From the NCBI RefSeq assembly GCF_000197735.1, contig NC_014550.1:1798001-1862000 (forward strand): a DNA stretch of 64,000 nucleotides. Reading direction: 5' to 3'. This DNA is from Glutamicibacter arilaitensis Re117. Lineage in GTDB: Bacteria > Actinomycetota > Actinomycetes > Actinomycetales > Micrococcaceae. Both the position numbers and the translations under genes were made by a program. Below, piece after piece: positions 5,149 to 40,793 of the stretch (position 1 is its first letter; the number at the start of each line of letters is the position of its first letter). The notes below the pieces were generated by a model, which ran no database searches, was not told where the DNA came from, and saw only the letters and a list, made by a program, of their open reading frames with translations.

Positions 5149-5350
5149 CTAGCTCGCGATGGATGAGGAACTATTCTTCGCCTCGCGTGAGCGCTGGGCC
5201 CCGTCATCGGCAATGATGGTGCCGTAGACCAGCCCCTGGCCGATAGTGGGGCCGGCGCCCGGGTAGACCTCGCCGAAGATATTCGAGGCAGTATTTCCCT
5301 GGGCGTAGAGACCTTGGATCGGCGAATCATCTTCGCGCACCACTACGGCC
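5149..5350 (-). pseudogene. C-terminal remnant of an FAD-dependent dehydrogenase (fumarate reductase / 3-ketosteroid dehydrogenase type)
   Basis: The last 66 or so codons of a flavoprotein survive, with an intact natural stop (TAG). The family's C-terminal signature is clear: GLYAQGNTASNIFGEVYPGAG followed by TIGQGLVYG, where such enzymes have GLYATGNT...YPGAG.TIG..L.FG. Upstream of about 5350 the frame stays open but has no similarity to the family, and at the same point a different remnant starts on the other strand. The FAD-binding N-terminal 400 or more residues are missing, so it cannot be functional. Confidence 0.8.
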
Positions 5351-5875
5351 AAGCTCGTCGCCCAGGATTTCGTGCTGGTTGACCAATGGGTCACCGGGCG
5401 CCATGAACCGGCGCAGCCCTTGGCAGAGCTCTTGCGCAGGTACCTTGCGTCCCATGGGCCAGCAACCATCCGCTACGCTGCCTGGTACTCGGGGCAAACC
5501 CTCAGCGATATGCGAGCAGCCAGCTAGACATTGGCAGAAGATCTCATCCGCGTAGGCAAGGATGAACGCGGTGAGGACTCCTGGGTGATAGCCCAAAGCC
5601 TGGCACACGTAGTACTTCAGCCGGAGCGAGTATCCTAGCTACCGTTGCGCCTGCGTGGACCCTTCGATGAGTACTGCCTGGGCTATGGCACGCGCACCCT
5701 GGTAGCTGATGAGCAGATGACAGCGCAGATCCTGCCGGGCAAGAACGGCATGTTCCTACCCTTCTGTCAGCAGGAGGGAAGGGCAGCAAAGATCTTGAAT
5801 GCAGAAACAGCGCCGACCGATAGTATCGGTGCGGCGCTGCATCAGCGGTATCTGGACTTCAAGACCGCCCGCTAG
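5351..5875 (+). pseudogene. Remnant of a winged-helix DNA-binding protein (AlkZ/YcaQ-like, HTH_42 family) with two in-frame stops
   Basis: One continuous frame from about 5351 to the TAG at 5873 shows the C-terminal half of the family: FVLVDQWVTGRHEPAQPLA, then RRYLASHGPATIRYAAWYSG, FDEYCLGYGTRTLV and LPGKNGMFLP. Two TAG codons interrupt it (at about 5525 and 5636), and the N-terminal half is missing. Relatives include the interstrand-crosslink glycosylase AlkZ. No frameshift was needed to follow it, so decay is point mutation plus loss of the 5' end. It begins exactly where the divergent flavoprotein remnant ends. Confidence 0.8.
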
Positions 5876-5887
5876 ACGGCCAAGTCG

Positions 5888-6460
5888 CTAGTGGCCGAAT
5901 GGATCCTCATCGGTACCCGGCAACCAGGTATTGCCCGGTACGCCCCAACCCAGAGCTTTCTTGGCCTTCTTCCAGCGTTTCTCCCAACGTGGCTGTAGCT
6001 TATCCACGTAGAGGTAGCCATCAAGATGGTCGTACTCGTGCTGCATGATGCGGGCGAACCAGCCATGAGCCTCGAAAGAGATCGGATTGCCGAACTCGTC
6101 AAAGCCTTCCACCTTCGCATAGTCTGCGCGCTGCAGCGGGTAGTTCAAGCCGGGAACCGACAAGCAGCCTTCTGAGTCCTCATCAGGGTGCGCAGGAGCC
6201 TGCGAAACCTTGGAGAGGGTCAGCTTCGGGTTGATCACCACGCCACGTTCGGGCGCATCGTCCTGATCGGCGAATACGTAGGTGAACATGCGCAGGCCCA
6301 AGCCGATCTGCGGAGCTGCAAGGCCGACGCCATGCGCTTCATCCATGGTCAGGTGCATATCGGCAACGAGCGCGCGCAACGCGTCATCAAACTCGGTTAC
6401 CTCAACGGCACGCTTGTGCAATACCGGTTCGCCGTAAACAGTGATCTGCCGAATAGGCAC
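5888..6460 (-). CDS. def: Peptide deformylase
   Basis: It removes the formyl group from the N-terminal methionine of nascent proteins. All three metal-site motifs are intact: GVGLAAPQIG, EGCLSVPG (Cys ligand) and QHEYDHLDG (two His ligands and the catalytic Glu). The start chosen is GTG 6460, because AAAGGA lies 9 bases upstream; an ATG six codons earlier overlaps that ribosome site. At 190 residues it is normal length. It follows the acyl-CoA dehydrogenase by 24 bases and is probably co-transcribed with it. Confidence 0.96.
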   Translation of the reverse strand: MPIRQITVYGEPVLHKRAVEVTEFDDALRALVADMHLTMDEAHGVGLAAPQIGLGLRMFTYVFADQDDAPERGVVINPKLTLSKVSQAPAHPDEDSEGCLSVPGLNYPLQRADYAKVEGFDEFGNPISFEAHGWFARIMQHEYDHLDGYLYVDKLQPRWEKRWKKAKKALGWGVPGNTWLPGTDEDPFGH

Positions 6461-6484
6461 GTGATCAGTTCCTTTCAAAAGTGC

Positions 6485-7633
6485 TTAGAGTGCTCGTCCA
6501 ATAGTTTCACGCATGATCTCGCTTGTGCCACCGAAGATGGTCAGCAAGCGCGAGGCAGTGAACGACTGGGCAATCGGGTACTCCATGATGTAGCCATAGC
6601 CGCCATGCAGCTGCAATGCCTTATCGGAAAGCTTTTTCGCGCTCTCACTAGCCCAAAGCTTCACCTCGGCGGCATCGGAAGCATTCAGCTCACCCTCATT
6701 GAAAGCCAGCACCGCACGGTCAACGAAGCTCTGGGTGACATGCGCCTCAGTTTTCAAATCAGCCAGCTCAAAACGCGTGTTCTGGTATTCGGTGAGTACC
6801 TGGCCGAAGGTCGAGCGGTTCTTCGTATGCTCAAGCGCCTGCTCGAAGGATGCAGAGCAGATCGCCGATGCGGCCACGGCGAGAGCCAAACGAGCCTGGG
6901 GCAGCTGCGCTTTGACATAGGACAGGCCCTGGCCGACTTCGCCAACAAGATCCGTCGCAGAGACGCGGACCTCGTCAAAGAACAGCTCAGCGGTATCTGA
7001 GGCGCGCAAGCCCATCTTGTCGAACGGCTTGCCGTTGCTGTAGCCCTCGGAACGCTCAACCATGAACAGCGAGAAAGAATGCGCGCCGGCCCGCGAGCTC
7101 TCGCCATCGGTACGCGCAAGCACTAGAGACGCATCGCCAAAGGCCGCATTGCCGATGAAGGTCTTCTGCCCGCTGATCAGCCAGTCATCGCCATCGCGCA
7201 CCGCCTTCGTGCGTACGGCACGCAGGTCAGAACCCGCGCCAGGCTCGGTCAGCGCGCAGGAGGTGATGGTAGAGCCGTCCACCATGCGTGGAAGCCACTT
7301 GGCCTTGAGCTCGGCAGAACCGTAGGACAGCAGATAAGGCAGCACCAGATCGTCATGCAGGTGGAACGCCAACGCCACGGCCAGGTGCCCGGAACGCACG
7401 AACTCCTCATCAAGCACTACACGGAAACGGTAGTCATCAATCCCCATGCCACCGAATTCTTCAGGCACGGCAAGACCTAGCAGGCCGTTCTCGCCGGCAG
7501 ACTGCCACACCTCGCGAGGAATCTGGTGGTCCTTCTCCCACTGAGCGTATTTGCCGGAAATCTCCCGGGCATTGAACTCCGTAGCCAATTCACGGAACTG
7601 CTCGTGGTCCTCTTCAAAGAGCGCGCGTTTCAC
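6485..7633 (-). CDS. Acyl-CoA dehydrogenase family protein lacking the usual catalytic glutamate
   Basis: A 382-residue flavoprotein with the full fold: N-terminal helical domain, ALTEPGAGSDL flavin/substrate block, the beta domain, and the C-terminal HGGYGYIMEYP motif. It resembles the long-chain type (IFGGTSEIMRE, where long-chain enzymes have IYGGTNEIM). In that type the catalytic base is the Glu of PQERL, but here the sequence reads PQARL, and the medium-chain position (IYEGT) is Gly. Neither known catalytic Glu is present, so it may be a different reaction type or a non-dehydrogenating relative. The start chosen is GTG 7633, with AAAGGT upstream. It lies first in an apparent operon with def. 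Confidence 0.88.
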   Translation of the reverse strand: MKRALFEEDHEQFRELATEFNAREISGKYAQWEKDHQIPREVWQSAGENGLLGLAVPEEFGGMGIDDYRFRVVLDEEFVRSGHLAVALAFHLHDDLVLPYLLSYGSAELKAKWLPRMVDGSTITSCALTEPGAGSDLRAVRTKAVRDGDDWLISGQKTFIGNAAFGDASLVLARTDGESSRAGAHSFSLFMVERSEGYSNGKPFDKMGLRASDTAELFFDEVRVSATDLVGEVGQGLSYVKAQLPQARLALAVAASAICSASFEQALEHTKNRSTFGQVLTEYQNTRFELADLKTEAHVTQSFVDRAVLAFNEGELNASDAAEVKLWASESAKKLSDKALQLHGGYGYIMEYPIAQSFTASRLLTIFGGTSEIMRETIGRAL

Positions 7634-8094
7634 AGGGGGAGTACCTTTCGGTAGAGGGGCGGGGCCTAATTTGGGGCAGGCCAGGAACATCGACCTGCCC
7701 GACTGTTCACTTCCATTATGGTCTTACCCAATGACATGCGCCTATTTGCGGCCGAGTATCTGTTGCCCACGTCATGTTTGAAGCAATAAGTCTCAAAAAA
7801 CACGGGTGTAGACTCCTCGCAGCCAGTGATTCGAACATAACTTCGAATATTGTCGAGGATCTGGTGTCACAAAGCTTAACGACAAGGTGCCAGCATCAAA
7901 GATGCTGGCACCGGTCTGTATCGGTGGGAGTCATCTGCGCTCATTGCGAGTGAATGCAATCTAAATTCCCGTGATCCGCTCCATCAACTACTGTGATTCC
8001 CCCAAGAGCCCACCGCATTGGTAGATCGAACAAGAATCATCCTATGGGCAAGTATGGACATCTAAGCTGCAAAACTGGGTGACTAGGTACGTCA
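7634..8094. other. Intergenic region between the acyl-CoA dehydrogenase and the LuxR-type regulator
   Basis: 461 bases with no credible gene. It should contain the promoter of the leftward acyl-CoA dehydrogenase operon; a CATAAT-like -10 lies around 7714-7719 on the minus strand. It also holds a perfect hairpin at 7886-7912 and a TTCGAA...TTCGAA repeat near 7830. Confidence 0.5.
7886..7912 (-). terminator. Hairpin terminator downstream of the LuxR-type regulator
   Basis: A perfect 12-bp stem, GGTGCCAGCATC with GATGCTGGCACC, and a 3-base loop. On the minus strand it is followed by TTGTCGTT. It lies about 180 bases past the regulator's stop. Confidence 0.6.
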
Positions 8095-10845
8095 TCACTC
8101 AAAAACAGGTAGGGCTAGAGTATCTTCTGCGGCCTGGAGCACTCCAGCATCCGTCGCGACACGCTCAGCCAGCAGTTGCCGACGGTCCGTGATACCCAAT
8201 TTCGCGTACGAGCGCTGCAAATGTCCCTCCACCGTACGCGGCGACAAAAACAGCTCCTGGGAAATCTCGTGATTGCTCGCCCCCGAAGCGGCCCTGATGC
8301 ACGTTGCATATTCACGAGCCGTCAACAGCGATTCATCAACACGAGCCCGACCCAATGCCGACGTATTAACATGTTCCAACGGCTGGGCGATGTCGACCGA
8401 AAGTCCCAGAAGATGGCTGGCCACCGTGCGCCGCCCCAGAACCCGAGCACGCTCCGAAGCACTCGCCGCCAGCTGGGCCGCCAGCAGCAGCTGCCCTCCC
8501 TCGATATGGGCCTGCACAAGCTGTCCCACATTCAGTTCCGCTGGATCCTCAAGCGCCGTCTGGTAGCCAGCCAGCGTCGCCGCCAACGGTCCCTGCACCT
8601 GCAACGCAGCTTCCGACAGCCGTGACGCATCGGCCAACAGTCCGCACTGCCATGCTTCGAGCAACAGGCGCATCACCAGGTTCTTACGCCCGAAGGACTC
8701 GGCCTCAGCAAGCAGCTTGTGCAATAAATCCTCAGCGGCCTGCTCGCCTTCAAGATCCAAAACCACCGATAGGAGAGACCGTTCGGCGATCGGACGCAAG
8801 ATCTGCCCCGAAACCTCAGGCTCCGCACGCGACATGTCCAGATAGTACGACGCCTTGGCCCGGTCGCCCAGCAGAGATGCAGCATACGCGGCAAACGCCG
8901 CGGCAAAACCCTTGACCAAATACGGGTCGCCTACCGACAGCAAACCTATCGCCTGCTCCAACGCCGCCAAGGCCTGTGAAGCCATCCCGGACTCCAGATA
9001 GCCCATGCCGATGCCCACGATGACGTTGCCGTGATCGACGTTTGCCTCCTTGAGGTTGTCACCCACCGTCAACTGGGCAAACTGCGCAGGATTCATCCCC
9101 AGCGCGAACGCCATCGCGGGGAACGCGAAGAGCAACTCGGAGCGTACCGAGGCAGACTCCGTTTTCCACTCCGGCGACGACGAGATCCGGACGTACTCGG
9201 CCATCGCCTCCTCGGCCGACCCGGAGTGCGACTTCTCGATCAGCACATGGGCCAGGCATGAAGCCCGACCTTCACTGCGCAGCTCGGGCATCGACGCATA
9301 CTGGCGCAACGAGGCGATATCAACAACCTTGTTGGCCCGCGACCGGATCAGCAGCAAGTACGCGGCAATGCCCGGTGGATCGCCAGGCCGGGGTTCCAGG
9401 ATCTGTTCAGCCAGCTCGAGACGCCCCAAACTCGCATACGCGATCTTGGCAGCGATAAAACGAATCTCCGGCGACCCCGTTGGCAGATGATCCTGCAGCA
9501 AGGCCAACGCGGCCTCCGGCTTGCCAAGTTCATACAACGCATCCGCTCGGGCAATCAGCAATGATTCCAGCTGGTCGGGGGAGTCGACCCGCTGCTGGTC
9601 CAGCAAATCGGTCAACGCGATCACCTGCGGAAACTGCCGTGCGCTAGTCAACTGCTCGACATCGGAGAGCAACTCGCGAATCGGAACGGTCAGCCCCATA
9701 TCCAGCCGATGCCGGGTGAACCGGCTTCGCGACTCCGCGTCGAACAGCTCCCAGGACAGCTTCTCGTCGATGGTATTGATATGCCGGCGCAGCGTGGACG
9801 AATCGAAACTGCTGAAAACTAGCTGAGAGGACAGGCCCGCACCGAGCCGGACGTGCTCCGTGCGCTCGCCGGTGACAGGGTTCTCCGAAACAAAATCGAG
9901 GCGGACCAGACCGGCGTCAATGGCATCGTAGATTGACTGACCCATGAGTTTGCGGGCAATCGGCAGTGGGAGCGGGCCGGTGACTGCCAGGAGCTCGAGA
10001 GCTTCCCGGACGTCCTCTGGCTGGTTGCTCAAGCGGGCGTTGATGAGGTCTGTGGTGCGCTTTCCATGCGGAGTCCAGCTCCGGTTCAGCGTCCAATAGT
10101 CCTGTTGCTTGCTCAGCGCCCCGGTCGACTGGGCATCCAGTGCCAGCTCGCGCAAATGCAGCGCATGCCCGCCGGAGAACTCCAGCAGCGAAGTGACGGC
10201 GCTCGAATTCACCTCGCCACCGAGGACCTCTGAAAGCATCACGCCCGCGTCGTCATAGGTGAGGGGCCCGAGTTCCATGCGCATGAAATTCGGGGAGGAA
10301 ATCATGGATCGCAGTTCCGAAGGCATCGCGTGAACCGCTGTCGTGGCGACGACCAGGCGAATATTGCCAGCCGTGGCGAACTGCTTGAGAACTGCGGCGC
10401 TTTGCTGGTCTACGTATTCCGCCTGATCCAGGAAAATCCACTGGGTGCGGTTGCTGGTGGCTCGGCCGATGCCGGTAACGAGTTCAGTGGGCGATGTCCC
10501 TGTCGAACCGTGGGGCAGCTGGGTTGCGAGTACGCTCAACGTGGAAAAAGGAACCGAGCTCAGCGCCTGGGAGCCGATGATCCAAATGAAATTGGATTCG
10601 ATGCGATCCATCAGTTGCAGTGAAAACGTCGTGCGTCCGGTCCCGACCTCGCCAATAATGAATATCGGGCCGCCAGTGCGGGCTGCTGTGAGCGCGGTGT
10701 TCAGGGCTTTGACACGGGAAGGCAGTACTTCTCTGCGTTCCATCTGGAAGCCAGGCATCTTATTAATATCGAACTCCCAGGTTGAGCCAGTCAAGTAGCG
10801 TTCCCTCTCAACTCGAGTAGTTTTGAGGGTATGCAAAAGTGACAT
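8095..10845 (-). CDS. Large LuxR-family transcriptional regulator with a degenerate ATPase domain
   Basis: About 916 residues if started at ATG 10845. The order is an N-terminal P-loop ATPase-like domain (about 50-300), a long helical repeat region resembling TPR repeats (about 400-820), and a C-terminal LuxR helix-turn-helix (about 841-893; LTAREYATCIRAA, then NHEISQELFLSPRTVEGHL). This is the LAL/MalT-like layout. The Walker A motif reads GEVGTGRTT, with Arg where Lys is normal, and the Walker B region is IFLDQAE. ATP binding may be weak or altered. A TTG at about 10797 preceded by GAGAGGGAA is an alternative start. No operon partner is present, so its target genes are unknown. Confidence 0.85.
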   Translation of the reverse strand: MSLLHTLKTTRVERERYLTGSTWEFDINKMPGFQMERREVLPSRVKALNTALTAARTGGPIFIIGEVGTGRTTFSLQLMDRIESNFIWIIGSQALSSVPFSTLSVLATQLPHGSTGTSPTELVTGIGRATSNRTQWIFLDQAEYVDQQSAAVLKQFATAGNIRLVVATTAVHAMPSELRSMISSPNFMRMELGPLTYDDAGVMLSEVLGGEVNSSAVTSLLEFSGGHALHLRELALDAQSTGALSKQQDYWTLNRSWTPHGKRTTDLINARLSNQPEDVREALELLAVTGPLPLPIARKLMGQSIYDAIDAGLVRLDFVSENPVTGERTEHVRLGAGLSSQLVFSSFDSSTLRRHINTIDEKLSWELFDAESRSRFTRHRLDMGLTVPIRELLSDVEQLTSARQFPQVIALTDLLDQQRVDSPDQLESLLIARADALYELGKPEAALALLQDHLPTGSPEIRFIAAKIAYASLGRLELAEQILEPRPGDPPGIAAYLLLIRSRANKVVDIASLRQYASMPELRSEGRASCLAHVLIEKSHSGSAEEAMAEYVRISSSPEWKTESASVRSELLFAFPAMAFALGMNPAQFAQLTVGDNLKEANVDHGNVIVGIGMGYLESGMASQALAALEQAIGLLSVGDPYLVKGFAAAFAAYAASLLGDRAKASYYLDMSRAEPEVSGQILRPIAERSLLSVVLDLEGEQAAEDLLHKLLAEAESFGRKNLVMRLLLEAWQCGLLADASRLSEAALQVQGPLAATLAGYQTALEDPAELNVGQLVQAHIEGGQLLLAAQLAASASERARVLGRRTVASHLLGLSVDIAQPLEHVNTSALGRARVDESLLTAREYATCIRAASGASNHEISQELFLSPRTVEGHLQRSYAKLGITDRRQLLAERVATDAGVLQAAEDTLALPVFE

Positions 10846-11111
10846 TACTAGCAATAATGCCCCGGTCAGCAACGAAGATTTTCCGGGTATTCGACAGATG
10901 CGAAAATGCGGACATACGGCTCAAATGTTTGTAGCTATAACGCCGTGCGTACGACGGAAGATGAAAATCCCCACTCGATCGAAACAATTTGGCTCTACTG
11001 CGTAATAATCCAAGAGGAACTTGGTCTTTGTGGAGTTAGTCCACAGGCAGCGTTGCCAAAATGTTGCTGTCAACTGAACCAATCGAGTTACTCGAACCCC
11101 TGCATCAGCAC

Positions 11112-11366
11112 TTAAAGCATTTCCAGAGGTGTTTGACGCTTGGGTGGTGGATGCGCGCGATGATCGAGGTCGAGATGGTGGTTGGAGAGCGCCAGCGGCG
11201 TTGCGTTTTCGTCAACATGCGCTGTATTCGATGCTTTCGGGATGGCGATGGTCCGGCCGTCTCGGATGGCTCAGGCGATCAGGATCTGGGCAACGCCGGC
11301 TCCAAGCTCCTCCGTGACCTCGAGGAGTTCAGGGCTTCCCAGAAGCTGGTCTTGTGCGATGGGGCG
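11112..11366 (-). pseudogene. C-terminal remnant of an aldo/keto reductase with one nonsense codon
   Basis: The minus strand encodes the final 85 or so residues of an aldo/keto reductase. It reads PELLEVTEELGAGVAQILIA, then a TGA (11271-11273) where the family has Trp, then AIRDGRTIAIPKAS, NTAHVDENA and the family ending PPPKRQTPLEML before the original TAA. The first 180 or so residues, with the catalytic tetrad, are gone. Both halves around the TGA are in the same frame, so TGG to TGA is the simplest event. It sits between the LuxR-type regulator and the first tRNA-His. Confidence 0.82.
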
Positions 11367-11499
11367 ACTAAGTGCCAATGAGCTGGCTGATCCCGCGAAT
11401 CGGGAACGTTGTTCGAGGATAGTCGTACTCGGAGAATCGCGCCTAGTCGGGCCGACGGAATGCTGCGAAATTTTGATGGGTGACGTACCGGAATGAAAA

Positions 11500-11546
11500 C
11501 GAGGTGCGAACCTCGACTGATTCAACAGTCAAGGGTTCGCACCTCG
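11500..11546 (-). terminator. Terminator of tRNA-His copy 1
   Basis: A 13-bp stem (CGAGGTGCGAACC with GGTTCGCACCTCG) plus an inner GACTG/CAGTC stem. On the minus strand it is followed by TTTTCATTCC, a good T-run. It starts a few bases after the tRNA 3' end. Confidence 0.85.
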
Positions 11547-11550
11547 ATAA

Positions 11551-11627
11551 TGGGGTGAGTAACGGGGTTTGAACCCGCGACCTTCTGGACCACAACCAGA
11601 CGCTCTACCGACTGAGCTATACCCACC
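11551..11627 (-). tRNA. tRNA-His (GUG), copy 1
   Basis: A complete cloverleaf with a 7-bp acceptor stem (GTGGGTA with TACTCAC) and the extra G-1 paired to C73 that is specific to tRNA-His. The anticodon loop is TTGTGGT, the T arm contains GGTTCGAACCC, and the CCA is encoded. Its sequence is identical to the copy at 13776-13852. Confidence 0.97.
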
Positions 11628-11941
11628 ATGTTTACTTCGATACTAGTCAGAAGCGATAGCTCTGAAGATTTCGTACCGGGCAACGAGAATTACTATACAC
11701 GTATTCGAACCAGAAATTCCAATCCACTGGGTGCCTTCTGCGGGATTGTGACGGGATGCTCATTTTTCAGTGTTCAGAACTGGTGGCGTACCGCTGAACT
11801 GCAATTACTGGTAGATCCCCGTGCCGAATTATTGCCATTTACTGCGCTACCTGAGTCCAACGTTTTGGCAAGAGGGTCAGGTATGCCGACGCTCCATGGT
11901 GGGTATAAGGGCCGTCGTGGATCGAATCAACGCCCCTCTCG
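11628..11941. other. Promoter region of tRNA-His copy 1 and left flank of the insertion sequence
   Basis: 314 bases without a convincing gene. The part nearest the tRNA holds two blocks shared with the second tRNA-His copy: 11628-11652 and 11673-11701. The second block contains TATAGT on the minus strand, and a TTGGAA lies 19 bases further upstream. The rest, up to the insertion sequence, shows nothing recognisable. Confidence 0.6.
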
Positions 11942-11994
11942 GTCAGGCTGTAAGTGAGTCAACCACGACCCACCACTGACCAGAAGGAACCACC

Positions 11995-12411
11995 ATGAGC
12001 ACCGTCGGCGTCACCCGCGAAGAAATCAGGGACTACGTCCACCAATACAACCTGCAGCCCCACGGCACCCGGACTGCATGGCTGCAGCAACAGCCCTTCT
12101 CCAGGGCCACGTTCTACCGCTGGAACCAGCTCGTCTTCGAAGGGGACCTCGACCGCAATCTCGTTCCACGAGATCATGGACAGATGAACACTACCCCGAG
12201 CCAACGCTCAGCCTTCGAGCAAGCCCGTGCCAAGGAACAAGCAGAACACGAGGACGAGCTCAAGGCGCTGCGTGAACGCGTCCGCCAGCTCGAAGGAACT
12301 AACGAGGCCCTGGGAAAAGCTATCGGGCTCTTGCACGCGTTGAACGAGCAAGAGCCCGCCACGTCAACGACGGACGAGCGCAAGAATTCATCGCCACGGA
12401 AAACGAACTGA
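11995..12411 (+). CDS. IS3-family transposase OrfA (helix-turn-helix subunit)
   Basis: 138 residues. The N-terminal part has a helix-turn-helix fold typical of IS3 OrfA proteins (TREEIRDYVHQYN, then PFSRATFYRWNQLVFEG). It is followed by a leucine-zipper-like coiled coil (EQAEHEDELKALRERVRQLEG). It binds the element's ends and, after frameshifting, forms the N-terminus of the OrfAB transposase. Residues after codon 108 read through the frameshift site and are probably just the short product's tail. The start ATG is preceded by AGAAGGAACCACC. Confidence 0.88.
   Translation: MSTVGVTREEIRDYVHQYNLQPHGTRTAWLQQQPFSRATFYRWNQLVFEGDLDRNLVPRDHGQMNTTPSQRSAFEQARAKEQAEHEDELKALRERVRQLEGTNEALGKAIGLLHALNEQEPATSTTDERKNSSPRKTN
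12312..12357 (+). promoter_or_regulatory. Programmed -1 ribosomal frameshift signal of the IS element
   Basis: The heptamer GGGAAAA at 12312-12318 lies in the orfA frame as G GGA AAA, a canonical X XXY YYZ slippery site. Six bases later begins a perfect 10-bp hairpin, GGGCTCTTGC (12325-12334) with GCAAGAGCCC (12348-12357). A slip back by one base at the heptamer enters exactly the frame of orfB. Confidence 0.85.
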
Positions 12412-13427
12412 TCCGAGCCCTAACGAGCCTTAACGGTTCGCAACGCCAAGCCCTCAAAGTCACCGGTCTTTCCCGTTCGACCTGGCACTACCGGAGCAGT
12501 CCGAGGCCCAGGGCAACGAACCCGATCCACCAGGCGGATCGCGCCTATTCCACCAGGATCAGCCCCGGGGACTGTGAGCGCATCGAAGAGCGTATTCTTG
12601 CCGGGTGGGCCGAGGGGAACTCGGTGGACCATTCCTTTGCCACAGCCTGGGATGAAGGACTCATGCTCGCCTCGCGGCGCGCATGGTGGCGTATTGCCGC
12701 AGCGCTCGAAGAGCAGATGCTCCGCCCGAAGGTGCCCACCCGAAAACAAAACCGCACAACACGAGGACAAAAGCCTGTGTTGAAAGCCACCGGTCCTGGG
12801 CAGATCTGGTCGTGGGACATTACCGACTTGTATTCGCCGTATAAGAACCGCGTGTTCAAGGCCTATTCGATCATCGATATTTTCTCCCGGCAGATCGTCG
12901 GGTACCGGGTGGAGGAGCGCGAAGCGGATCATCTGGCCGTGGAGATGTTCCAAGACGCTTTCAAAACCTACGGCGTGCCCCATGTAGTACATGCCGATTC
13001 TGGGCCGGCCATGAAGTCCAATGCCTTGAAAGACGCGTTGGAGGCCAAAGGTGTTGAGCTGAGCCATAACCGGCCCTACGTATCGAATGACAACCCGTTC
13101 AGTGAGTCCGGATTCAGGACGATGAAGTATCGTCCCGATTATCCAAAAGTATTCTCCGCGCTTGCCGATGCGCGAGCCTATTTGGATGGGTACGTGCCGT
13201 GGTACAACGGGCAGCACAAGCATTCGGGGATTGCTTTGTTCTCTCCGGCGCAGGTCCACGACGGGTCTTGGGAGCATGTTTGGCAGGTGCGGCAGCAGGC
13301 ATTGGAGGATTATTACCGGTTGCATCCGGCACGTTTTCATTACCGTCCGGTGACGCCTGCGCCTGCGGGGGTCGTGGGGATTAACCTGCCGTCAGAAGAG
13401 GCGGGTGTTGCGTTGCAGGCAGCTTAG
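12312..13427 (+). CDS. IS3-family transposase OrfB (DDE integrase), made as an OrfAB fusion
   Basis: This frame is open from 12303 and has no good start of its own near the front, so it is expected to be translated by -1 frameshifting from orfA, giving a fusion of about 477 residues. It begins with an HTH_21-like region (SLNGSQRQALKVTGLSRSTWHYR). The integrase core carries the catalytic residues in WSWDITDLYSPYKN (Asp), HADSGPAM (Asp) and NPFSESGFRTMKY (Glu). The motif WYNGQHKHSGI near the end is typical of the family. It cuts and joins the element's ends during transposition. Confidence 0.88.
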   Translation, partial: GKSYRALARVERARARHVNDGRAQEFIATENELIRALTSLNGSQRQALKVTGLSRSTWHYRSSPRPRATNPIHQADRAYSTRISPGDCERIEERILAGWAEGNSVDHSFATAWDEGLMLASRRAWWRIAAALEEQMLRPKVPTRKQNRTTRGQKPVLKATGPGQIWSWDITDLYSPYKNRVFKAYSIIDIFSRQIVGYRVEEREADHLAVEMFQDAFKTYGVPHVVHADSGPAMKSNALKDALEAKGVELSHNRPYVSNDNPFSESGFRTMKYRPDYPKVFSALADARAYLDGYVPWYNGQHKHSGIALFSPAQVHDGSWEHVWQVRQQALEDYYRLHPARFHYRPVTPAPAGVVGINLPSEEAGVALQAA

Positions 13428-13446
13428 TGACTCCACACAGCTTGAC

Positions 13447-13772: not shown

Positions 13773-13775
13773 TCT

Positions 13776-32272: not shown

Positions 32273-32276
32273 GTTC

Positions 32277-33256: not shown

Positions 33257-33514
33257 ATGAAGGCTGATATCCATCCACAGTACGGCCCAGTTGTCTTCAA
33301 CGACCTGGCGTCCGGCGAAAAGATCCTGACCCGTTCGACCGCTAAGTCGGACAAGACCATCGAATGGGAAGATGGCAACACCTACCCAGTAATCGACGTC
33401 GAAATCTCGGCTGCTTCGCACCCGTTCTACACCGGCAAGCAGCGCATCATGGACACCGCTGGTCGTGTCGAGCGCTTCAACGCCCGCTTCAAGGGCTTCG
33501 GCGGCAAGAAGTAA
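33257..33514 (+). CDS. rpmE2: 50S ribosomal protein L31 type B
   Basis: 85 residues beginning [16 protein letters not shown], with SHPFYTGKQ and [13 protein letters not shown]. No CxxC pairs are present, so this is the zinc-free form. Type B L31 often replaces the zinc form when zinc is scarce, but I see no convincing Zur-type palindrome in the 146 bases upstream. AAAGGTG precedes the ATG. Confidence 0.96.
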
Positions 33515-33540
33515 TAACTTCGCCCCAACGCAAGCTTATT

Positions 33541-33570
33541 ACGGCGTGCTTCCTTCGGGAAGCACGCCGT
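33541..33570 (+). terminator. Terminator of rpmE2
   Basis: A perfect 13-bp stem, ACGGCGTGCTTCC with GGAAGCACGCCGT, around a TTCG loop, 26 bases after the stop. Confidence 0.9.
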
Positions 33571-33651
33571 TGCTGCTTTAACCAGCATTCGTGCCAGACA
33601 GAGCCGACTTGGGTGATTCGACCAGCTCACGCTCGGCGATAGAATGGAGGC

Positions 33652-34707
33652 ATGATGCATCATGGCGAATACAAGGTAGTCGGTGGCAAATTAGTTGTTG
33701 TGGATTTGGATACCGCCGATGGCGTGATCACTGACGTTTCATTGAACGGCGACTTCTTCCTTGAACCCGATGACGCACTTGAAGACTTGAATGACGCGCT
33801 CCGCGGATTGCCGGTAGACGCCAGCAACAGCACCATTCGCGATGCAGTGAATCAGAACCTGCGCGAGGGTGCGGTGATGTTCGGCTTCGACGCTGACGCC
33901 GTGGCCCGCGTGGTGCGCCGCGCCCTGGGCCACGCGACCAAGTGGGAAGACCACGAATGGGAGATCCTGGCCCCGGAAATCATCCCGATTACCGAGCAGG
34001 TGGCCCTCGATGAGGTGCTTACCCGCCAGATCGCGAAGGGTACGCGCAAGCCGACCATCCGCTTCTGGGATTGGAACGAAGGCGCGGTAGTCATTGGATC
34101 CTTCCAGTCGCTGAAAAACGAAGTGGACATGGAACAGGCGAACAAGCATGGCATCCAGGTAGTCCGCCGCATTTCAGGCGGAGGAGCGATGTTCATGGAA
34201 GCGGGTAACTGCATCACCTATTCGCTCTACGCCCCAGAATCTCTGGTCGATGGCATGAGCTTTGCCGATTCCTACCCGTTCCTTGACGCGTGGGTTATGG
34301 AAGCCCTGGAGAGCATCGGCCTGAAGGCCCACTACAAGCCGTTGAATGATATTGCCACGCCCGCAGGCAAGATCGGCGGCGCGGCACAGAAGCGCCTGGC
34401 CAACGGTGCGATGCTGCATCACGTGACCATGAGCTACGACATCGATGCACAGAAGATGACCGACGTGCTGCGCATCGGCCGCGAAAAGATTTCCGACAAG
34501 GGCATCGCCTCGGCCGTCAAGCGCGTGGATCCGCTGAAGTCCCAGACCGAGCTGGAGCGCATGGAAATCATCGAGATCATGATGGACACTTTCGCCAAGC
34601 GCACCGGGGCAACCCGCACCCAGCTCGATGAAGCCTCCCGCAAGGACGCCCAAGAGCTGGCCGAGACCAAGTTCGCTACCGAGAAGTGGACTGCGCGCGT
34701 TCCATAA
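33652..34707 (+). CDS. Lipoate-protein ligase A-like protein with an N-terminal accessory domain
   Basis: 351 residues. The first 95 resemble the small lipoate-ligase accessory domain, and the remainder is the ligase/acyltransferase fold. It has VVRRISGGGAMFMEAGNCITYSL (binding loop) and NDIATPAGKIGGAAQKRLANG (the Lys that contacts lipoate or lipoyl-AMP). Family members attach lipoate to dehydrogenase E2 or GcvH subunits, though some relatives act on biotin or octanoate. TAGAAT at 33640-33645 places the likely transcription start on the ATG, so it may be leaderless despite the GGAGG in between. Confidence 0.85.
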   Translation: MMHHGEYKVVGGKLVVVDLDTADGVITDVSLNGDFFLEPDDALEDLNDALRGLPVDASNSTIRDAVNQNLREGAVMFGFDADAVARVVRRALGHATKWEDHEWEILAPEIIPITEQVALDEVLTRQIAKGTRKPTIRFWDWNEGAVVIGSFQSLKNEVDMEQANKHGIQVVRRISGGGAMFMEAGNCITYSLYAPESLVDGMSFADSYPFLDAWVMEALESIGLKAHYKPLNDIATPAGKIGGAAQKRLANGAMLHHVTMSYDIDAQKMTDVLRIGREKISDKGIASAVKRVDPLKSQTELERMEIIEIMMDTFAKRTGATRTQLDEASRKDAQELAETKFATEKWTARVP

Positions 34708-34719
34708 GCCTGCAGGTGC

Positions 34720-35475
34720 TCAACGCGGGTTGCGTGCCAGTGCGGCGTGCACCGCTTCAGCCGGTTGGCAGTGCAGTGCCTTGCCATGGCCGGGCAGGAT
34801 CGAGTCGGCGTCGAGGCCATCGAAGGCCGTAAGGGCTTGATAGGCCTGCTGCCGCTCGTGGTGGAACATAGGGTGCAGCATCTGCGCCCCGGTGGTGGTA
34901 CTGAGCGCGTGGCCGGAGATCAGTGCATCTCCGGAGATAAGTACCTTTGCATCCGGCAGGTGGAATGCGCTGTGGCCAGGAGTATGACCTGGTGTAGGCA
35001 CGGCCACCGGTGCACCGGGCAGTGCGGCAAGTTGCTGGGTTGTCCAAATTTTTGCTTCAAGAACCTTGGTTCCCTCGGTGCCTCCGACAGTGAGTACATG
35101 GCGCATCCATTTGAATACCCGAGGCTGCCACGCGCGGACCAGGATTTGCACGGGGGAGACTTGGAAGCGTTCTTCCCCGGTCATCTGCGTATGCTCGGCG
35201 TGAGAGCTCAGCACCGGAACACATAATTCCGAGGCGAAGTAGGCTGCCGCTCCGGTGTGGTCCACATGCCCGTGGGTGATCAGCATGGCCGCGGCATCCT
35301 TGACCGAAAGGCCAAGCCGCCTAATTGAGTCGAGCACCAGCGGCACATCCCCGGGGTAGCCTCCGTCAATCACCGTGTAGACTCCATTGTCTTCCAAGAT
35401 GATCCAGTTCGAGGCCGGACCTTCAACCATGTAGGTGCCTTGGGCATGCTCGGTGATGTGGAACTGATGTGGCAA
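34720..35475 (-). CDS. MBL-fold metallohydrolase
   Basis: 251 residues with the metallo-beta-lactamase signature THGHVDHTGAA. The other zinc ligands are in HTPGHSA (His), ISGDALI (Asp) and ILPGHG (His). The closest general group is the glyoxalase II-like hydrolases, with no substrate assignment possible. It converges with the lipoate ligase-like gene, with only 12 bases between stops. It starts about 155 bases from the pepN 3' end. Confidence 0.87.
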   Translation of the reverse strand: MPHQFHITEHAQGTYMVEGPASNWIILEDNGVYTVIDGGYPGDVPLVLDSIRRLGLSVKDAAAMLITHGHVDHTGAAAYFASELCVPVLSSHAEHTQMTGEERFQVSPVQILVRAWQPRVFKWMRHVLTVGGTEGTKVLEAKIWTTQQLAALPGAPVAVPTPGHTPGHSAFHLPDAKVLISGDALISGHALSTTTGAQMLHPMFHHERQQAYQALTAFDGLDADSILPGHGKALHCQPAEAVHAALARNPR

Positions 35476-35570
35476 GAGGACTCCTGGATCTATCAGGCGA
35501 AGTTCGCTGGCGGCGCGATGCCCTCAGTATGCCAGCGGGCCAGGCTCCGAGAAAGGGCCGGGTAAATGCA

Positions 35571-35611
35571 CCACGCCCGGTTCCGCTTAGACGAAGCGGA
35601 ACCGGGCGTGG
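35571..35611 (-). terminator. Terminator of pepN
   Basis: A perfect 18-bp stem, CCACGCCCGGTTCCGCTT with AAGCGGAACCGGGCGTGG, 19 bases past the pepN stop on the minus strand. Confidence 0.92.
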
Positions 35612-35630
35612 ATTGATCTCCCCAGAAGAA

Positions 35631-38279
35631 TTAGCCTCTGGTGCGGCTGTAGGCCTGGGCCTTCAGCGAGCGTTCCAGCTCGGCACGTTCCTCCAGCAGG
35701 ATGCGCTTCAGGGCCGTTGGCGCGCCTTCATGGCGTTCGAGCCAATTGGTTGAGGCAGCCAGTGCCTGGTTCTGCTCAACTGCCCCATCCAGATCCTGGT
35801 GGCCTGGGAATAGGCCTTCGATCACGCGGGTGGCGAATTCCATGCCCATGGTCTCGAAGACCGGAAGCACCGCGGCCCAGTAACGCTGTTCGAATGGTGC
35901 CAGCAGCGCAGCTGATCCCATGGTGAAGCCCAGTGCGGTGGCCGAAAGCGCATCGTTGGACAGCTCGCCCTGCTCATCGCGGGCCATCAGCACGGTGTCG
36001 AAGGCGGTTTCCTTCACCTGTGCATCCGGGCGTGCGGCCAGCGCGGTGCGCACCGCGTTCAGAGCCACACTGGTTGGCTTCGCTTTGGCCGCTTCATGCA
36101 TGCGGGCCTCAGCAGCTTCATCCAGCCGGCCTGCCGCGGCCAGCGCAATGTAGGAAGCCCACAGCAGCTGCTCGTCTACGGTGACTTGGTACTGGTTCGG
36201 CTGCTCGCCAAGGAAAGCATCGATCACTTGGCCAGCCACTCCGGCGCGGGCCAAGCGGGCCAGGGTACGCGCGGTGGTGGTCTGCTGATCGCTGCCGGAC
36301 TCGAATTCGGTCAGCCAGCCGGTGAGCACGCCAGCGGCGCGGGTGCGCAGTTCGGCGCGCAGCTCAGGGGCCGCATACTTGGAAATCGAGGTGATCAGCT
36401 GGTCGGTGAGCACGCCGAAGACGCCTGCGTCGGTGACCGTGTGCGCGTGGTCCAAAATGGCCTGCACATAGCTTTGGGCATCCAAGGTGGCTGAACGCAC
36501 CGCATCCCACAGCGAAGCCCAGCAAGTGGCGCGCGGCAGCGAGTCGGTCAGGCCCGAGAGATGAGCGAGCAAGGTGGCCCGCGAAACCTGGTCGAACTCA
36601 ATCAACGCATAGGTTTCATCGCCATCATTGGGCAACACCAGGTCCGGGACCTTGGAACCTACAAGGAAGTCCAGGGCTGCCGATTCGCCGGCCAATTCCA
36701 CACGCGCGGAGTCGCTGCGGCTCAGCTTGCCATCGGCCAGCTGGTAGGCGCCCACAGAGAGCACATGCGGGCGCGCGATCTTTTCACCGGTGACCGGATC
36801 GGTGCCGGACTGGATCAGCGATGCGGCGGTAATGGTGCCGGCTTCATCGGTATCGTACTGCACGTGCAGCTTGGGCACGCCACTGGTCTTCAGCCACGCC
36901 TCGGCCCAGGCACCCATATCGCGTCCGCTGGCCGTTTCCAAAGCCTCGAGGAAATCATCCAGCGAGGTATTGGAGTAGGCATGCTTGCGGAAGTAAGCGC
37001 GGGCGGCGTCGCGGAAAGCGTCGGCTCCAACGAAGGCAGCCAGCTGCTTGAGCACGCTGGCGCCCTTGGCGTAGGTGATGCCATCGAAGTTCTGGTCCGC
37101 GGCCAGCAGGTCCGGGATGTCAGCGACAATCGGGTGCGTGGTGGGCATCTGGTCTGCCACATAGGCCCAGGCCTTGCGGCGGGCGGCGAAGGTGGTCCAG
37201 GCGGTGGTGAAGTCGGTGGCCTCGTCATTGGCCAGGGTGCCAATGTAGTCCGCGAAGGATTCCTTCAGCCACAAATCATCCCACCACTTCATGGTGACCA
37301 GGTCGCCGAACCACATGTGCGCCATTTCGTGCATCAGGGTGTTGGCGCGCTGCTCGTGCTGCGCCTCGGTGGCCTGGGAGGTGAACACGTAGCGTTCGGT
37401 GAAGGTGACCAGGCCCGGGTTTTCCATGGCGCCGAGGTTGTATTCGGGCACGAACGCCGAGTCGTACTTGCCCCATGGGTAGGGGTAGTCGAAGAGCAGG
37501 TGGTAGTAGTCCAGGCCCTGGCTGGTGAGCTTGATGATCTCTTCACCATCGAAATGCTTGGCCAGCGAGGCGCGGCAGGTGGCGGCCATCTCGATGCTCA
37601 GCTCTTCGCCGTCCTCCAGCTTCTGGATGTGCTCGCCGCGCACCACGTGGTACGGGCCGGCCAGCACTGCGGTGATGTAGCTGGAAATGGGGGGAGTCGG
37701 GGCGCAGGCCACGGTCTTGGTGCCGTTATCGTGCAGTACCTCATCAACGATCGGCTGGTTGCTGGCCAGGTGCCAGGCGGCCGGTCCGGTCAGGGTGAAG
37801 CGGTAGCTGGTCTTCAAGTCTGGTTGTTCGAAGCAGGCGAAGACGCGGCGGGCCTCGGAAGGTTCGAATTGGGTGTAGAGGTAGGTCTGCCCATCTTGCG
37901 GATCCACGAAGCGGTGCAGGCCCTCTCCGGAGCGCGAGTACAGTGCCGTACCGGTGATCTTCACGGTGTTGGGCACGTCGGTGCGCAGGTTATCCAGGTA
38001 GATGCGCGCGTCGAGCACGGCGCTGTCCAGGTCGACCGCGGTGCCGTTGACCAGCACTTCGTCCACGGATTCGTGGATGAAGTCGATGAAGGTCTCGGCC
38101 CGCTTGGAGCTGAAGTTCAGCGTGGTGATTGAGCTGTATCCGGAGGCGGAAGAATCGGTGGCGTTGGAGACATCGAGCTGGATTTCGGCGAAATGCCAGT
38201 CGATGTTCTGTGCGCGCCAAGCCGCTTCATCGCGCCTGAGGTTTTCATTGGGTGCATAGCGTTCTAATGTGTCCACCAT
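35631..38279 (-). CDS. pepN: Aminopeptidase N (M1 family)
   Basis: 882 residues, close to the actinobacterial PepN length. It has the substrate-binding GAMEN motif (NLGAMENPGLVTF, about residue 280) and the zinc site HEMAHMWFGD followed 18 residues later by Glu in LKESFADY (about 314-340). The C-terminal half is the ERAP1-like helical domain. It removes N-terminal residues from peptides in the cytoplasm; there is no signal peptide. It is a single gene with a strong terminator. Its start lies 27 bases from the GntR-type remnant. Confidence 0.96.
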   Translation of the reverse strand: MVDTLERYAPNENLRRDEAAWRAQNIDWHFAEIQLDVSNATDSSASGYSSITTLNFSSKRAETFIDFIHESVDEVLVNGTAVDLDSAVLDARIYLDNLRTDVPNTVKITGTALYSRSGEGLHRFVDPQDGQTYLYTQFEPSEARRVFACFEQPDLKTSYRFTLTGPAAWHLASNQPIVDEVLHDNGTKTVACAPTPPISSYITAVLAGPYHVVRGEHIQKLEDGEELSIEMAATCRASLAKHFDGEEIIKLTSQGLDYYHLLFDYPYPWGKYDSAFVPEYNLGAMENPGLVTFTERYVFTSQATEAQHEQRANTLMHEMAHMWFGDLVTMKWWDDLWLKESFADYIGTLANDEATDFTTAWTTFAARRKAWAYVADQMPTTHPIVADIPDLLAADQNFDGITYAKGASVLKQLAAFVGADAFRDAARAYFRKHAYSNTSLDDFLEALETASGRDMGAWAEAWLKTSGVPKLHVQYDTDEAGTITAASLIQSGTDPVTGEKIARPHVLSVGAYQLADGKLSRSDSARVELAGESAALDFLVGSKVPDLVLPNDGDETYALIEFDQVSRATLLAHLSGLTDSLPRATCWASLWDAVRSATLDAQSYVQAILDHAHTVTDAGVFGVLTDQLITSISKYAAPELRAELRTRAAGVLTGWLTEFESGSDQQTTTARTLARLARAGVAGQVIDAFLGEQPNQYQVTVDEQLLWASYIALAAAGRLDEAAEARMHEAAKAKPTSVALNAVRTALAARPDAQVKETAFDTVLMARDEQGELSNDALSATALGFTMGSAALLAPFEQRYWAAVLPVFETMGMEFATRVIEGLFPGHQDLDGAVEQNQALAASTNWLERHEGAPTALKRILLEERAELERSLKAQAYSRTRG

Positions 38280-38305
38280 CCCAGCTTAGCTGTGAAACGA
38301 ATGCT

Positions 38306-38450
38306 TTAGGGTTTTATCTGGGAAACTTCTCGCTGGGCCAGCAGTGTGCGGATGCCGTGGAAGTGCCCGGAGATCAGCTCGCGGGCGGTGTCCACGTCCT
38401 TGCTGCGCACCGCATCGAGGATATCGCGGTGATCCTGGGCGGTTTTGTCC
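38306..38450 (-). pseudogene. C-terminal remnant of a GntR-family regulator (FCD ligand domain)
   Basis: About 48 codons survive with the original TAA. They read QDHRDILDAVRSKDVDTAREL, then GHFHGIRTLLAQREVSQ, which matches the last two helices of FCD domains (the H..I..A...D...A pattern and the final His). The DNA-binding domain and most of the ligand domain are absent. At about 38450 the similarity stops, and a different remnant starts on the plus strand. Such regulators often sit next to sugar-acid or sialic-acid genes. Confidence 0.7.
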
Positions 38451-38530
38451 GGCTGGGTGTGGTGGTGGGAACCGCGATTTCCCATCCGGCCAGCATCACC
38501 GGTTGGTTCGACGCCGCCCTGCGCGCCTAG
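38451..38530 (+). pseudogene. C-terminal remnant of a NanE-like epimerase (ManNAc-6-P 2-epimerase)
   Basis: The last 26 codons before a TAG read LGVVVGTAISHPASITGWFDAAL. This closely follows the conserved NanE ending (VVVGSAITrP..ITxwF..A). All catalytic residues lie in the missing N-terminal 200 residues. Together with the divergent GntR/FCD remnant it suggests a lost amino-sugar or sialate catabolic locus. Only a short segment supports the assignment. Confidence 0.58.
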
Positions 38531-38604
38531 GCATTTTCACCGGGGCTGGTATCTGACCTACGCTTAAGCGCAGAACCTAATTCCTGCAGAATCGGAGATA
38601 CCCC

Positions 38605-39165
38605 GTGGACGTCTTTATCAAAGGCCCTTCCAAGCGCGATGTAGCTGGCATGAAAGCGGCCTTCGGCGAGGTGGCGGCCGGAGACGTGATCTCGGTGCTG
38701 TACAAGACCACCCGCTTTGGCAACTTCCTGATCACTGGTGCCGCGCACGCCACCGTGCTTGATGACGTGATGGTCGGCGGGCTGAACGCAGCCGCGGCCA
38801 AGAAGAAAGCCAAAGACGCTGATGGTGGGGAAACCATGGCCCGCCAGCCCGATAAGGATGTTCGTGCCTTCCCTGCAGTCTTCGAGGGCGAATTCGCTCC
38901 CGAGGACATCGAGGTTTCCGAGCTGTCCCACGGCGACCTGGTCGTTGCATCTTTCAGCCAGGAACCTTACGGCGATTTCGTGATCACCGGTGTGGTCACC
39001 GAAGCAGAAAATGATCGCAGCTACCTGATGGTCGGTCCGTGGATCCTGCAGACCGCAGAAGAGGCGGCGCCGAGGCTGCTTTCGGTGCAGCGTGTGGCTG
39101 CCAATGGCACGCATGTGGCCCCGGTGCCTACGCTCCGCGGCTTGGTCGAGGTCGACGGCTTGTAA
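38605..39165 (+). CDS. Uncharacterised protein with an internal twofold repeat
   Basis: 186 residues from GTG 38605 (CGGAGA upstream). I do not recognise the family. Two halves resemble each other: residues 25-60 (AAGDVISVLYKTTRFGNFLI, then TGAAHATVLDDVMVGG) and 108-147 (SHGDLVVASFSQEPYGDFVI, then TGVVTEAENDRSYLMVGP). The shared pattern is GD-hhh...-G-x-F-hITG...-hMVG, joined by a Lys/Ala-rich linker. The predicted content is mainly beta strand. It may be a duplicated beta-barrel domain. It is intact, with a terminator 16 bases after the stop. Confidence 0.72.
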   Translation: MDVFIKGPSKRDVAGMKAAFGEVAAGDVISVLYKTTRFGNFLITGAAHATVLDDVMVGGLNAAAAKKKAKDADGGETMARQPDKDVRAFPAVFEGEFAPEDIEVSELSHGDLVVASFSQEPYGDFVITGVVTEAENDRSYLMVGPWILQTAEEAAPRLLSVQRVAANGTHVAPVPTLRGLVEVDGL

Positions 39166-39181
39166 CGAGCAAAGAGTCCGA

Positions 39182-39224
39182 CAGGCCCCAGTGAATGAAA
39201 TTATTTTTCATTCACTGGGGCCTG
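39182..39224 (+). terminator. Terminator after the repeat-containing gene
   Basis: A perfect 19-bp stem, CAGGCCCCAGTGAATGAAA with TTTCATTCACTGGGGCCTG, around a short AT loop. Confidence 0.92.
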
Positions 39225-39410
39225 AGCTCTTATATGAGTCGTCGGGGCGCAGCGAACTGATTATTGCTTTTAGAACCTACGAGGCGCGCGCATGATGACG
39301 ACTAACTTAGCCAACTGAATCGCCACGCGTTTCGTGCCGCTTTATCTTGGGCTTTCCAGACGGGCTCAGGATGAGTCTTATTTGTCCTTCCTAATCGCTA
39401 CGATCCGGAT

Positions 39411-39902
39411 ATGGATAAGGTGATGGACTCAATCGGGCAGCTGCGCTCAAGCAGGAAGTTCAACTGGTTTAACGCCACCGAGCTTGATGCCCTCTTGGAG
39501 GAGGAAGTGGCCCCGGAGGAAATCTGGTGGGGCACTAGCCGGCATGACGAGTTGCATAAGCTCGAATCGGTGGCCCAGATCCCCTCAATATTGCGCATGG
39601 TCCTTGAATGGGGAGAAAACTATTCCTTTGAAAACGATCCGATGACCAAATATGCCCAGGGCACCAAGCTCGTCGACGGGAACTACACTTTGGAGCTCGC
39701 TGTCGTTGGCCATCAGGCGTGCAACATCAGGATCGGCTACGGTGCAGACCCGGACTGCCTGTCGAGCCATCCTGATGCGGACGTGGAATTCGAAAGCCCG
39801 CAATCCCTGAGCATCGCCCAGGTCACCGAAGTGCTCGGCCAGTGGTTGCTAGGCCGAGGTCTTCCCTCCGGGTATGGCGGCAGCATCCATATCTACGGGT
39901 AG
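39411..39902 (+). CDS. Hypothetical soluble protein
   Basis: 163 residues, no signal peptide or membrane segment, no family I recognise. It is rich in acidic residues and tryptophan (EEIWWGTSRHDELH) and has an amphipathic N-terminus, as in many small immunity-like or orphan proteins. That comparison is only compositional. TACGAT lies 6 bases before the ATG, consistent with a leaderless message. It has no operon partner and lies between a terminator and a remnant. Confidence 0.6.
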   Translation: MDKVMDSIGQLRSSRKFNWFNATELDALLEEEVAPEEIWWGTSRHDELHKLESVAQIPSILRMVLEWGENYSFENDPMTKYAQGTKLVDGNYTLELAVVGHQACNIRIGYGADPDCLSSHPDADVEFESPQSLSIAQVTEVLGQWLLGRGLPSGYGGSIHIYG

Positions 39903-40085
39903 CACCGAATACTGAAAACAGTAGTGGGAAACCTTCTGGCATCCTGAGTAGCAGGACAATGCCGCAATGCTGGCGAAGACCTTGCCGGACAAAACGGAGT
40001 TGATGATCTTAGGTCCTGTCCTCGACCCTCGGACCTCGCAGCCCTACGAAGACCAGACGCTTTAGCCGGCCCCTTCGCATTGGAC

Positions 40086-40340
40086 CTAGCCACGCAGCAC
40101 CTGGCCGATGATCTCCACTCCCTGGCTGAAGGCTCCGGGATTCGGGCCAGCAAAGTTCAACCGCAGATAGCGTCTGGTCGGCTCGGCTGGGAACCAGCTG
40201 TCGCCGGCCACGATCGCCACACCGCGCATTTCGCAGTCGCGCACCAGTTGTGCTGGATTAGCGGTATCGGGCAGCCGAACCCACAAATTCAGTCCGCCCT
40301 GGCGTTTGCCGCCGTGCAAGGCGGTGGTCTTGGCGGCCTG
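40086..40340 (-). pseudogene. C-terminal remnant of a MocR-type (GntR/aminotransferase) regulator
   Basis: About 80 codons with the original stop. They read GGLNLWVRLPDTANPAQLV, then GVAIVAGDSWFPAE and RYLRLNFAGPNPGAFSQGVEI, the small domain of MocR/PdxR fold-type I aminotransferase-like proteins (GGLNLWVRLP ... PGDxWFP ... LRLSFA). The helix-turn-helix and the PLP-binding Lys region are missing. Upstream of about 40340 the frame continues without similarity. Here the divergent EamA remnant begins. Confidence 0.8.
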
Positions 40341-40793
40341 CACACAGCAGACCTGTTGCTCTTCGGCGCCGTACTGGCTTGCGCCATCGGCTACGCGGAA
40401 GGCGGCCTGCTCTCGCGCGAGCTCGGCTCGTGGCAAACAATCTCTTGGGCGCTGGCTCTCGCCGCTCCGGTGATGTTGACGCTCACCGCCAACTGAGCGG
40501 TGCAGCACCCGCCCACAGCAACGCCGGGCGAGTGGGTGGCCTTCGCCTATCTCGGTGTAGTGAGCTTGTTCCTGGGTTTCATCGCGTGGTATCGCGGACT
40601 GGCTATCGGTCCCATGGCGCAGGTCAGCCAGGTGCAATTGGCGCAACCGGTGATGACCATCTGCTGGGCAGGTCTGCTGCTGCACGAACGCATCGGTTGG
40701 CCTACCGTCGTGGGCGGTTGCGCGGTCATCCTCTGCGCATTGCTCGCCGTAAGATCGAGGAACCAACGCATCACCGAGGAGAACCGAGCATGA
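40341..40793 (+). pseudogene. C-terminal half of an EamA/DMT-family exporter with an in-frame stop
   Basis: One frame encodes about 150 residues of the second EamA repeat: DLLLFGAVLACAIGYAEGG, LSRELGSWQTISWALALA, a TGA at 40494-40496, then WVAFAYLGVVSLFLGFIAWY, GLAIGPMAQVSQVQLAQPV and VVGGCAVILCAL. The first repeat is missing. The stop overlaps the start of the following aldolase gene (ATGA), so the two were once an operon. MocR regulators commonly control divergent EamA transporters, matching the neighbouring remnant. Confidence 0.83.

Follow-up and report, generated by a model that had tools for sequence, protein, structure and literature searches.

The analysed window, a stretch of 64,000 nucleotides, covers positions 1798001–1862000 of contig C3 in the 3.9-Mb genome of a Glutamicibacter (G000); positions prefixed with w are numbered within it. 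G000 was compared with 17 relatives, which gives a set of 18 genomes of the genus. Its closest relatives among them are G012 and G015; in a tree of gapA, def and pepN (18 genomes, gapA being missing for G010), G000 is sister to G012 + G015 (supports 1.0 and 0.997; identities 89.5% and 88.2%). At three places, the junctions J1, J2 and J3 in window order, the 3′ tail of a minus-strand gene directly meets the 3′ tail of a plus-strand gene, with no filler between them (Table 1). All three junctions are present in the sequence with sharp edges, and the recurrent geometry noticed in the preliminary description is borne out. The relatives refined all three of its estimated places; J3 lies at w40296–40299 and not at 40340. 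The idea that every tail keeps its natural stop holds in part: ahead of its own stop codon, the AlkZ-like tail carries two in-frame stops (w5525–5527 and w5636–5638), and the EamA tail carries one (w40494–40496). The GntR tail ends five codons later than in G012; GntR C-termini differ among relatives, and its stop may not be the natural one.

Table 1. Gene remnants and junctions in the window (positions within the window)
Feature	Position	Strand	Basis and remarks
J1 left: flavoprotein 3′ tail, 65 codons + stop	5149–5346	−	FAD-binding, 3-ketosteroid-delta1-dehydrogenase-type; 68% identity to residues 519–571 of the full-length G003 protein
Junction J1	5346–5348		Similarity to G012, G015, G004, G005, G013 and G006 starts at w5348
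J1 right: decayed 3′ half of AlkZ-like (PF06224) gene	5345–5875	+	tblastn to the 348-aa protein of G012, query residues 174–348, 69%
J2 left: 3′ tail of nan-cluster GntR/FCD regulator	38306–38459	−	G012 GntR, query residues 208–252, 84%; Pfam GntR + FCD
Junction J2	38458–38459		Site of 8,779-bp deletion relative to G012
J2 right: last 23 codons of nanE + stop	38459–38530	+	G012 NanE, query residues 206–227, 95%; PF04131 on intact copy
J3 left: 3′ tail of MocR-type (GntR + aminotransferase) regulator	40086–40299	−	G012 MocR, query residues 398–466, 87%; Pfam
Junction J3	40296–40299		Site of 1,635-bp deletion relative to G012; 3–4-bp overlap
J3 right: 3′ part of EamA transporter	40296–40793	+	tblastn of G014 EamA, query residues 112–274
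DHDPS-family gene, open frame	40790–41728	+	ATG overlaps EamA stop

At J2, G012 matches w35632–38459 and w38459–39223, the two alignments sharing the single nucleotide w38459; the 8,779 bp that separate them in G012 hold a minus-strand GntR/FCD regulator opposite a plus-strand operon of seven genes, SBP-DppB-DppCD(fused)-DppF-NanA-NanK-NanE. G000 retains some 45 codons from the 3′ end of the regulator gene, and the partner tail comes from nanE, the last gene of the operon. The genome search found no other nanE in G000. In the intact relatives, nanA, nanK and nanE stand together with the transporter (Pfam DHDPS, ROK, NanE and SBP_bac_5). Of the NCBIfam models, NanE scores above its cut-off and the NanA-, NanK- and NanR-type models score below theirs; NanR is nevertheless the best NCBIfam match of the regulator. 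Sialic-acid catabolism is the predicted function of the lost module, and the event at J2 is the loss of a pathway and not of a promoter alone. As its sister genomes G012 and G015 both keep the module, the deletion in G000 dates after its split from them. In G015, a gene for a 940-aa BNR-repeat (sialidase-type) protein follows nanE (L082:3648–6470).

Six of the 18 genomes (G012, G015, G011, G004, G005 and G001) have the complete nan module at this place, and G003 and G017 have a full-length nanE at another location. Scars like that of G000, with other breakpoints, were found in further relatives. G002 and G013 share one different join, also of two-tail geometry, in which GntR is kept from residue 139 and NanE from residue 85; compared to G004, ∼8.3 kb are missing from G002, with a 3-bp overlap at the join. 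G014 retains a NanK tail and a frameshifted NanE, and in G010 a GntR tail is fused to DNA that is found just beyond nanE in G001. A single shared event for G000 and G002/G013 was considered and rejected, since the joins are not the same and the module is still present in G012 and G015. Because the breakpoints differ, the module has been cut at least four times, with G002/G013 counted once. The remaining seven genomes have no nan trace at this place, where the module was possibly never present. Gain and loss of nan clusters across Actinobacteria have been published (PMC8754123); like the clusters here, those in the passages of that paper are patchy, have consecutive nanA-nanK-nanE and were in part lost with decayed remnants, there in Alloscardovia, and Glutamicibacter nicotianae is listed among the nan-positive species. 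Different from those passages, which do not describe such an event, one 8.8-kb deletion runs here between a divergent regulator and nanE, and the loss recurs with other breakpoints inside one genus. We regard this repeated loss of one nan module as the most useful part of the finding; it shows how an accessory pathway vanishes, by one cut through a divergently built module, recurring in related species and leaving a recognisable two-tail signature.

Divergent pairs of a MocR/GntR regulator and a transporter are a known arrangement. In G012, a MocR-type regulator of 467 aa on the minus strand lies back to back with EamA on the plus strand, followed by the DHDPS-family gene, and in this it is such a pair; different from it, both genes are without their 5′ parts in G000. 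The 1,635 bp missing relative to G012 correspond to the 5′ parts of MocR and EamA and the space between them; despite this loss, the DHDPS-family gene is still open. A full-length MocR is found at 8 of the 17 relatives' loci, and EamA is near full length in G012, G011 and G013. G015 separately lost MocR entirely together with most of EamA, of which a weak match remains (residues 244–280 in G014 EamA numbering). J3 is thus a true divergent pair cut by one deletion, and it fits the model of the preliminary description.

J1, between gapA and def, is of a different kind. The right-hand tail belongs to an AlkZ-like gene (PF06224 was assigned by Pfam on the intact G012 copy) that 13 of the 17 relatives carry, near full length, between gapA and def; among the exceptions, it is frameshifted in G017, reduced to a tail in G001, absent from G009 and represented by a distant version in G010. 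At its left edge, the match to the 17 relatives' loci starts at w5348 in the six listed in Table 1, at w5360 in G002 and G014, and further right in the remaining ones. The flavoprotein gene, in contrast, has no match in any of the 17 gapA-def loci. Its close full-length copies, in G003 (876 bits against NF009479, cut-off 793), G017 and G008, are all on other contigs. No AlkZ-like match at E 1e-4 was found near the flavoprotein gene in 80 loci from other genomes, of which 79 extend at least 2 kb and 75 at least 5 kb beyond its 5′ end; another 29 loci, from the family search, were left out, as they end inside or just at the flavoprotein 5′ end. Since the flavoprotein gene is absent at 17 loci and has no AlkZ-like neighbour in 80, an ancestral pair cut by a single deletion is not shown for J1. 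None of the relatives compared has the two genes as a pair at this place, and the AlkZ-like tail is native. Gene content of the gapA-def interval differs from species to species, and J1 is a composite, in which the native AlkZ-like gene is missing its 5′ half beside the flavoprotein tail within this variable interval.

Relocation of the flavoprotein gene from the site where G003 has it was rejected, as G000 joins the flanks of that site without the gene or a trace of it; other former sites are possible. For J1 only, the tail may instead be a short fragment captured during repair, so that a full gene never stood here. The absence of the gene from this place in all relatives, the location of the full-length copies on other contigs and the empty G003 site all favour capture, and so does the position of the tail's stop, 15 bp beyond the point where the alignment to G012 behind gapA ends. 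However, the tail ends with its own stop and is oriented like a gene, and the comparison covers 18 genomes of one genus; we consider capture quite possible, though somewhat short of probable. Just upstream of the gapA-type gene, an RNase P RNA (RF00010) lies on the plus strand at w3037–3391.

Intact divergent genes thus stand at the same place in a close relative for J2 and J3, and not for J1. The flanks join without extra bases, with a 1-bp overlap at J2 and a 3–4-bp overlap at J3; at J1 the right side alone is alignable. The proposal of one deletion per locus is upheld at J2 and J3 by the clean joins, the alignment of both flanks and the intact order in G012, but not at J1. The more specific proposal, a divergent pair that lost its shared promoter and both 5′ halves, describes J3 only: at J2 eight genes were involved, six of which are gone whole, and at J1 the relatives show no pair. 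Taken together, these observations indicate that all three junctions are very probably scars of lost accessory genes. An assembly error is extremely improbable as their source: two of the tails have decayed internally, J2 and J3 align cleanly on both sides, the genome is rated 100% complete in 3 contigs, and comparable scars occur in other genomes.

A similar remnant lies ∼139 kb beyond the window end. In G012, an ArsR gene is paired divergently with an MFS gene beside thrS, a position that was checked in G012 and G014; in G000, an ArsR tail remains at w202708–202794 (extended window coordinates). ArsR is full length in 15 of the 18 genomes, the query's own G012 counted, and only its last 28–32 codons are left in G000, G002 and G011. 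Next to the tail, upstream of thrS, lies a stretch that hardly differs among the five genomes aligned. Such a position would be expected if deletions stop where the control region of a neighbour begins. Rfam gave no match at the junctions or upstream of thrS.

Why, then, do two tails meet? The alignments show that at J2 and J3 one deletion each fell within a module in which both outermost genes point away from the centre (GntR and the nan operon; MocR and EamA-DHDPS). With the flanking genes (PepN, a 186-aa gene and DHDPS) retained, nothing but 3′ ends can remain of such a module, and the tail/tail geometry follows. This covers J2, J3 and the nan scars of G002/G013, G014 and G010, with no special mechanism; the geometry is thus mostly a matter of architecture. 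We infer a short-overlap illegitimate deletion, by which a dispensable function was lost, followed by neutral decay; the in-frame stops in the AlkZ-like and EamA tails represent decay following truncation. Where measured (J2, J3 and G002 against G004), the overlaps at the joins are 1–4 bp, which argues against homologous recombination between repeats. No match to a Ku gene (PF02735) was found in G000, and one is present in 9 of the 18 genomes of the genus; Ku-dependent joining is therefore unavailable to G000 now, although the deletions may predate a loss of Ku. The likeliest route is slippage or alternative end joining. Any signal of relaxed constraint is weak: codon position 3 takes a share of 0.58–0.60 of the mismatches in the tails versus 0.68–0.87 in three neighbouring intact genes, but between G012 and G015, where both genes are intact, the corresponding AlkZ-like and GntR stretches give a likewise low 0.55–0.60. 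The finding is mostly an ordinary one, gene loss by deletion.

The preliminary description had also suggested a deletion mechanism focused on divergent promoters, or selection to silence regulator/target pairs, and had pointed to microhomology as a check. All three junctions are tail/tail, and the ArsR/MFS pair of G012 adds a fourth divergent regulator/transporter pair that is gone from G000. However, the check gave 1 bp at J2, 3–4 bp at J3 and no repeats; the breakpoints of G000, G002/G013, G014 and G010 all differ, and neither shared breakpoints nor repeats were found at the joins. The ends of one deletion are separated by as much as 8.8 kb rather than placed around a promoter, and J1 is no pair in the relatives. 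Together with the short overlaps and the missing Ku gene of G000, this speaks against a promoter-focused mechanism, and any process aimed at divergent promoters or regulator/target pairs is very unlikely. That three of three junctions are tail/tail, described as striking, is indeed uncommon (random two-gene cuts on the G012 gene map give tail/tail in 15–19%), but the test is post hoc and the sample very small. In that tally J3 was one-sided, since our home-made gene caller missed EamA in G012, and EamA was added from tblastn.

To place the junctions in a wider context, 864 kb of G000 were compared with 837 kb of G012, in a chain that spans 795 kb of G000 with 654 kb aligned. We found 16 sharp length differences, J1 being classed as replaced and not as sharp. 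Eleven of them have both ends outside called genes, versus 5–6% expected under random placement. This counts against module architecture as the whole explanation: scars that end inside genes and are all tail/tail within 36 kb are unusual, and architecture alone leaves their clustering unexplained; J1, moreover, departs from simple module loss.

Truncations surviving inspection between G000 and G012 number nine tails and one plausible head stub of ∼15 codons in G012, whereas random cuts give about half tails. Seven tails are in G000 (AlkZ-like, flavoprotein, GntR, NanE, MocR, EamA and ArsR) and two in G012, from an MFS gene, whose closest relatives in the genus are located elsewhere, and from a 221-aa gene, which has a full-length counterpart in five genomes, free of stops in G000, G005, G010 and G001 and with a single stop in G009. 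A tail beside an IS-like ORF in G005 and the scars in other genomes were left out of this count. Among 108 G012 genes without a full-length ortholog, 55 had no trace, 42 no local interval, 5 were near full length or frameshifted, 5 were tails and 1 was a head; in the reverse direction (n = 122), the figures were 71, 1, 3, 2 and 1, with 44 outside the anchors. Several candidates were dropped: a head at G012 612628, whose ORF is the antisense of a neighbour plus an MFS tail; a head at G012 256177, a nuclease-like gene with a frameshift, of which the C-terminal end can be traced too; a tail at G012 647732, where the gene is intact; and a head in G017, a frameshifted gene. Four rows of the tblastn screen (G004, G006, G011 and G014) were not counted, owing to a wrong start in one G012 gene. 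Of three stubs at BLAST edges (38, 50 and 103 bp), judged by eye, one is the plausible 15-codon head, one is terminator-like and one lies in a doubtful ORF. The other in-gene alignment ends keep nearly the whole gene, fall within one gene or belong to J1–J3.

The survey of tail orientation called for in the preliminary description thus returned mostly tails, but from few events. The bias is suggestive; the set is small, and events that share a locus do not count as independent. One explanation is that cuts leaving a 5′ head, with promoter, ribosome site and start codon, are selected away and silent 3′ tails persist, so that scars would be mostly tails anywhere. The excess of tails over the single head stub agrees with this, as does a comparison of G002 with G014 over 200 kb, in which the single in-gene end seen by alignment was the ArsR tail of G002. 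A 2026 paper (PMC13345370) argues, in the part available to us, that selection removes the expression signals of new pseudogenes. On the other hand, independent events are few, and several sit in divergent modules where no head is possible. The screens are also incomplete, since tblastn gave no candidate in the G002/G014 stretch and thus overlooked the ArsR tail. Such selection may have shaped the remnants seen here, but we hold this to be doubtful, and the general form of the claim, that deletion scars of free-living bacteria are overwhelmingly outward 3′ tails because promoter-bearing 5′ heads are purged, is more unlikely still. If it were true, selection on gene loss could be read from the orientation of remnants; should the tail bias hold on more genomes, orientation would offer an inexpensive way to test whether expressed fragments of genes are selected against. 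Like the truncated pseudogenes treated in that part of PMC13345370, the remnants here retain under 65% of the length of the gene; different from them, they are abutting opposite-strand 3′ tails in a 3.9-Mb genome that is not that of a symbiont with a high pseudogene load. Titles and abstract openings of the literature searched contain no orientation rule for gene remnants, although such a rule may be in print.

Besides the junctions, a 324-aa gene of G012 is split by a frameshift in G000 (w56570–57540), and 46.7 kb of G012 (C1:502317–549014) are absent from G000, with a sharp join at w169645 (extended window coordinate). The window also contains two tRNA-His (GTG) genes on the same strand, ∼2.2 kb apart (w11551–11626 and w13776–13851); two copies in this interval are seen in the alignments of many relatives as well.
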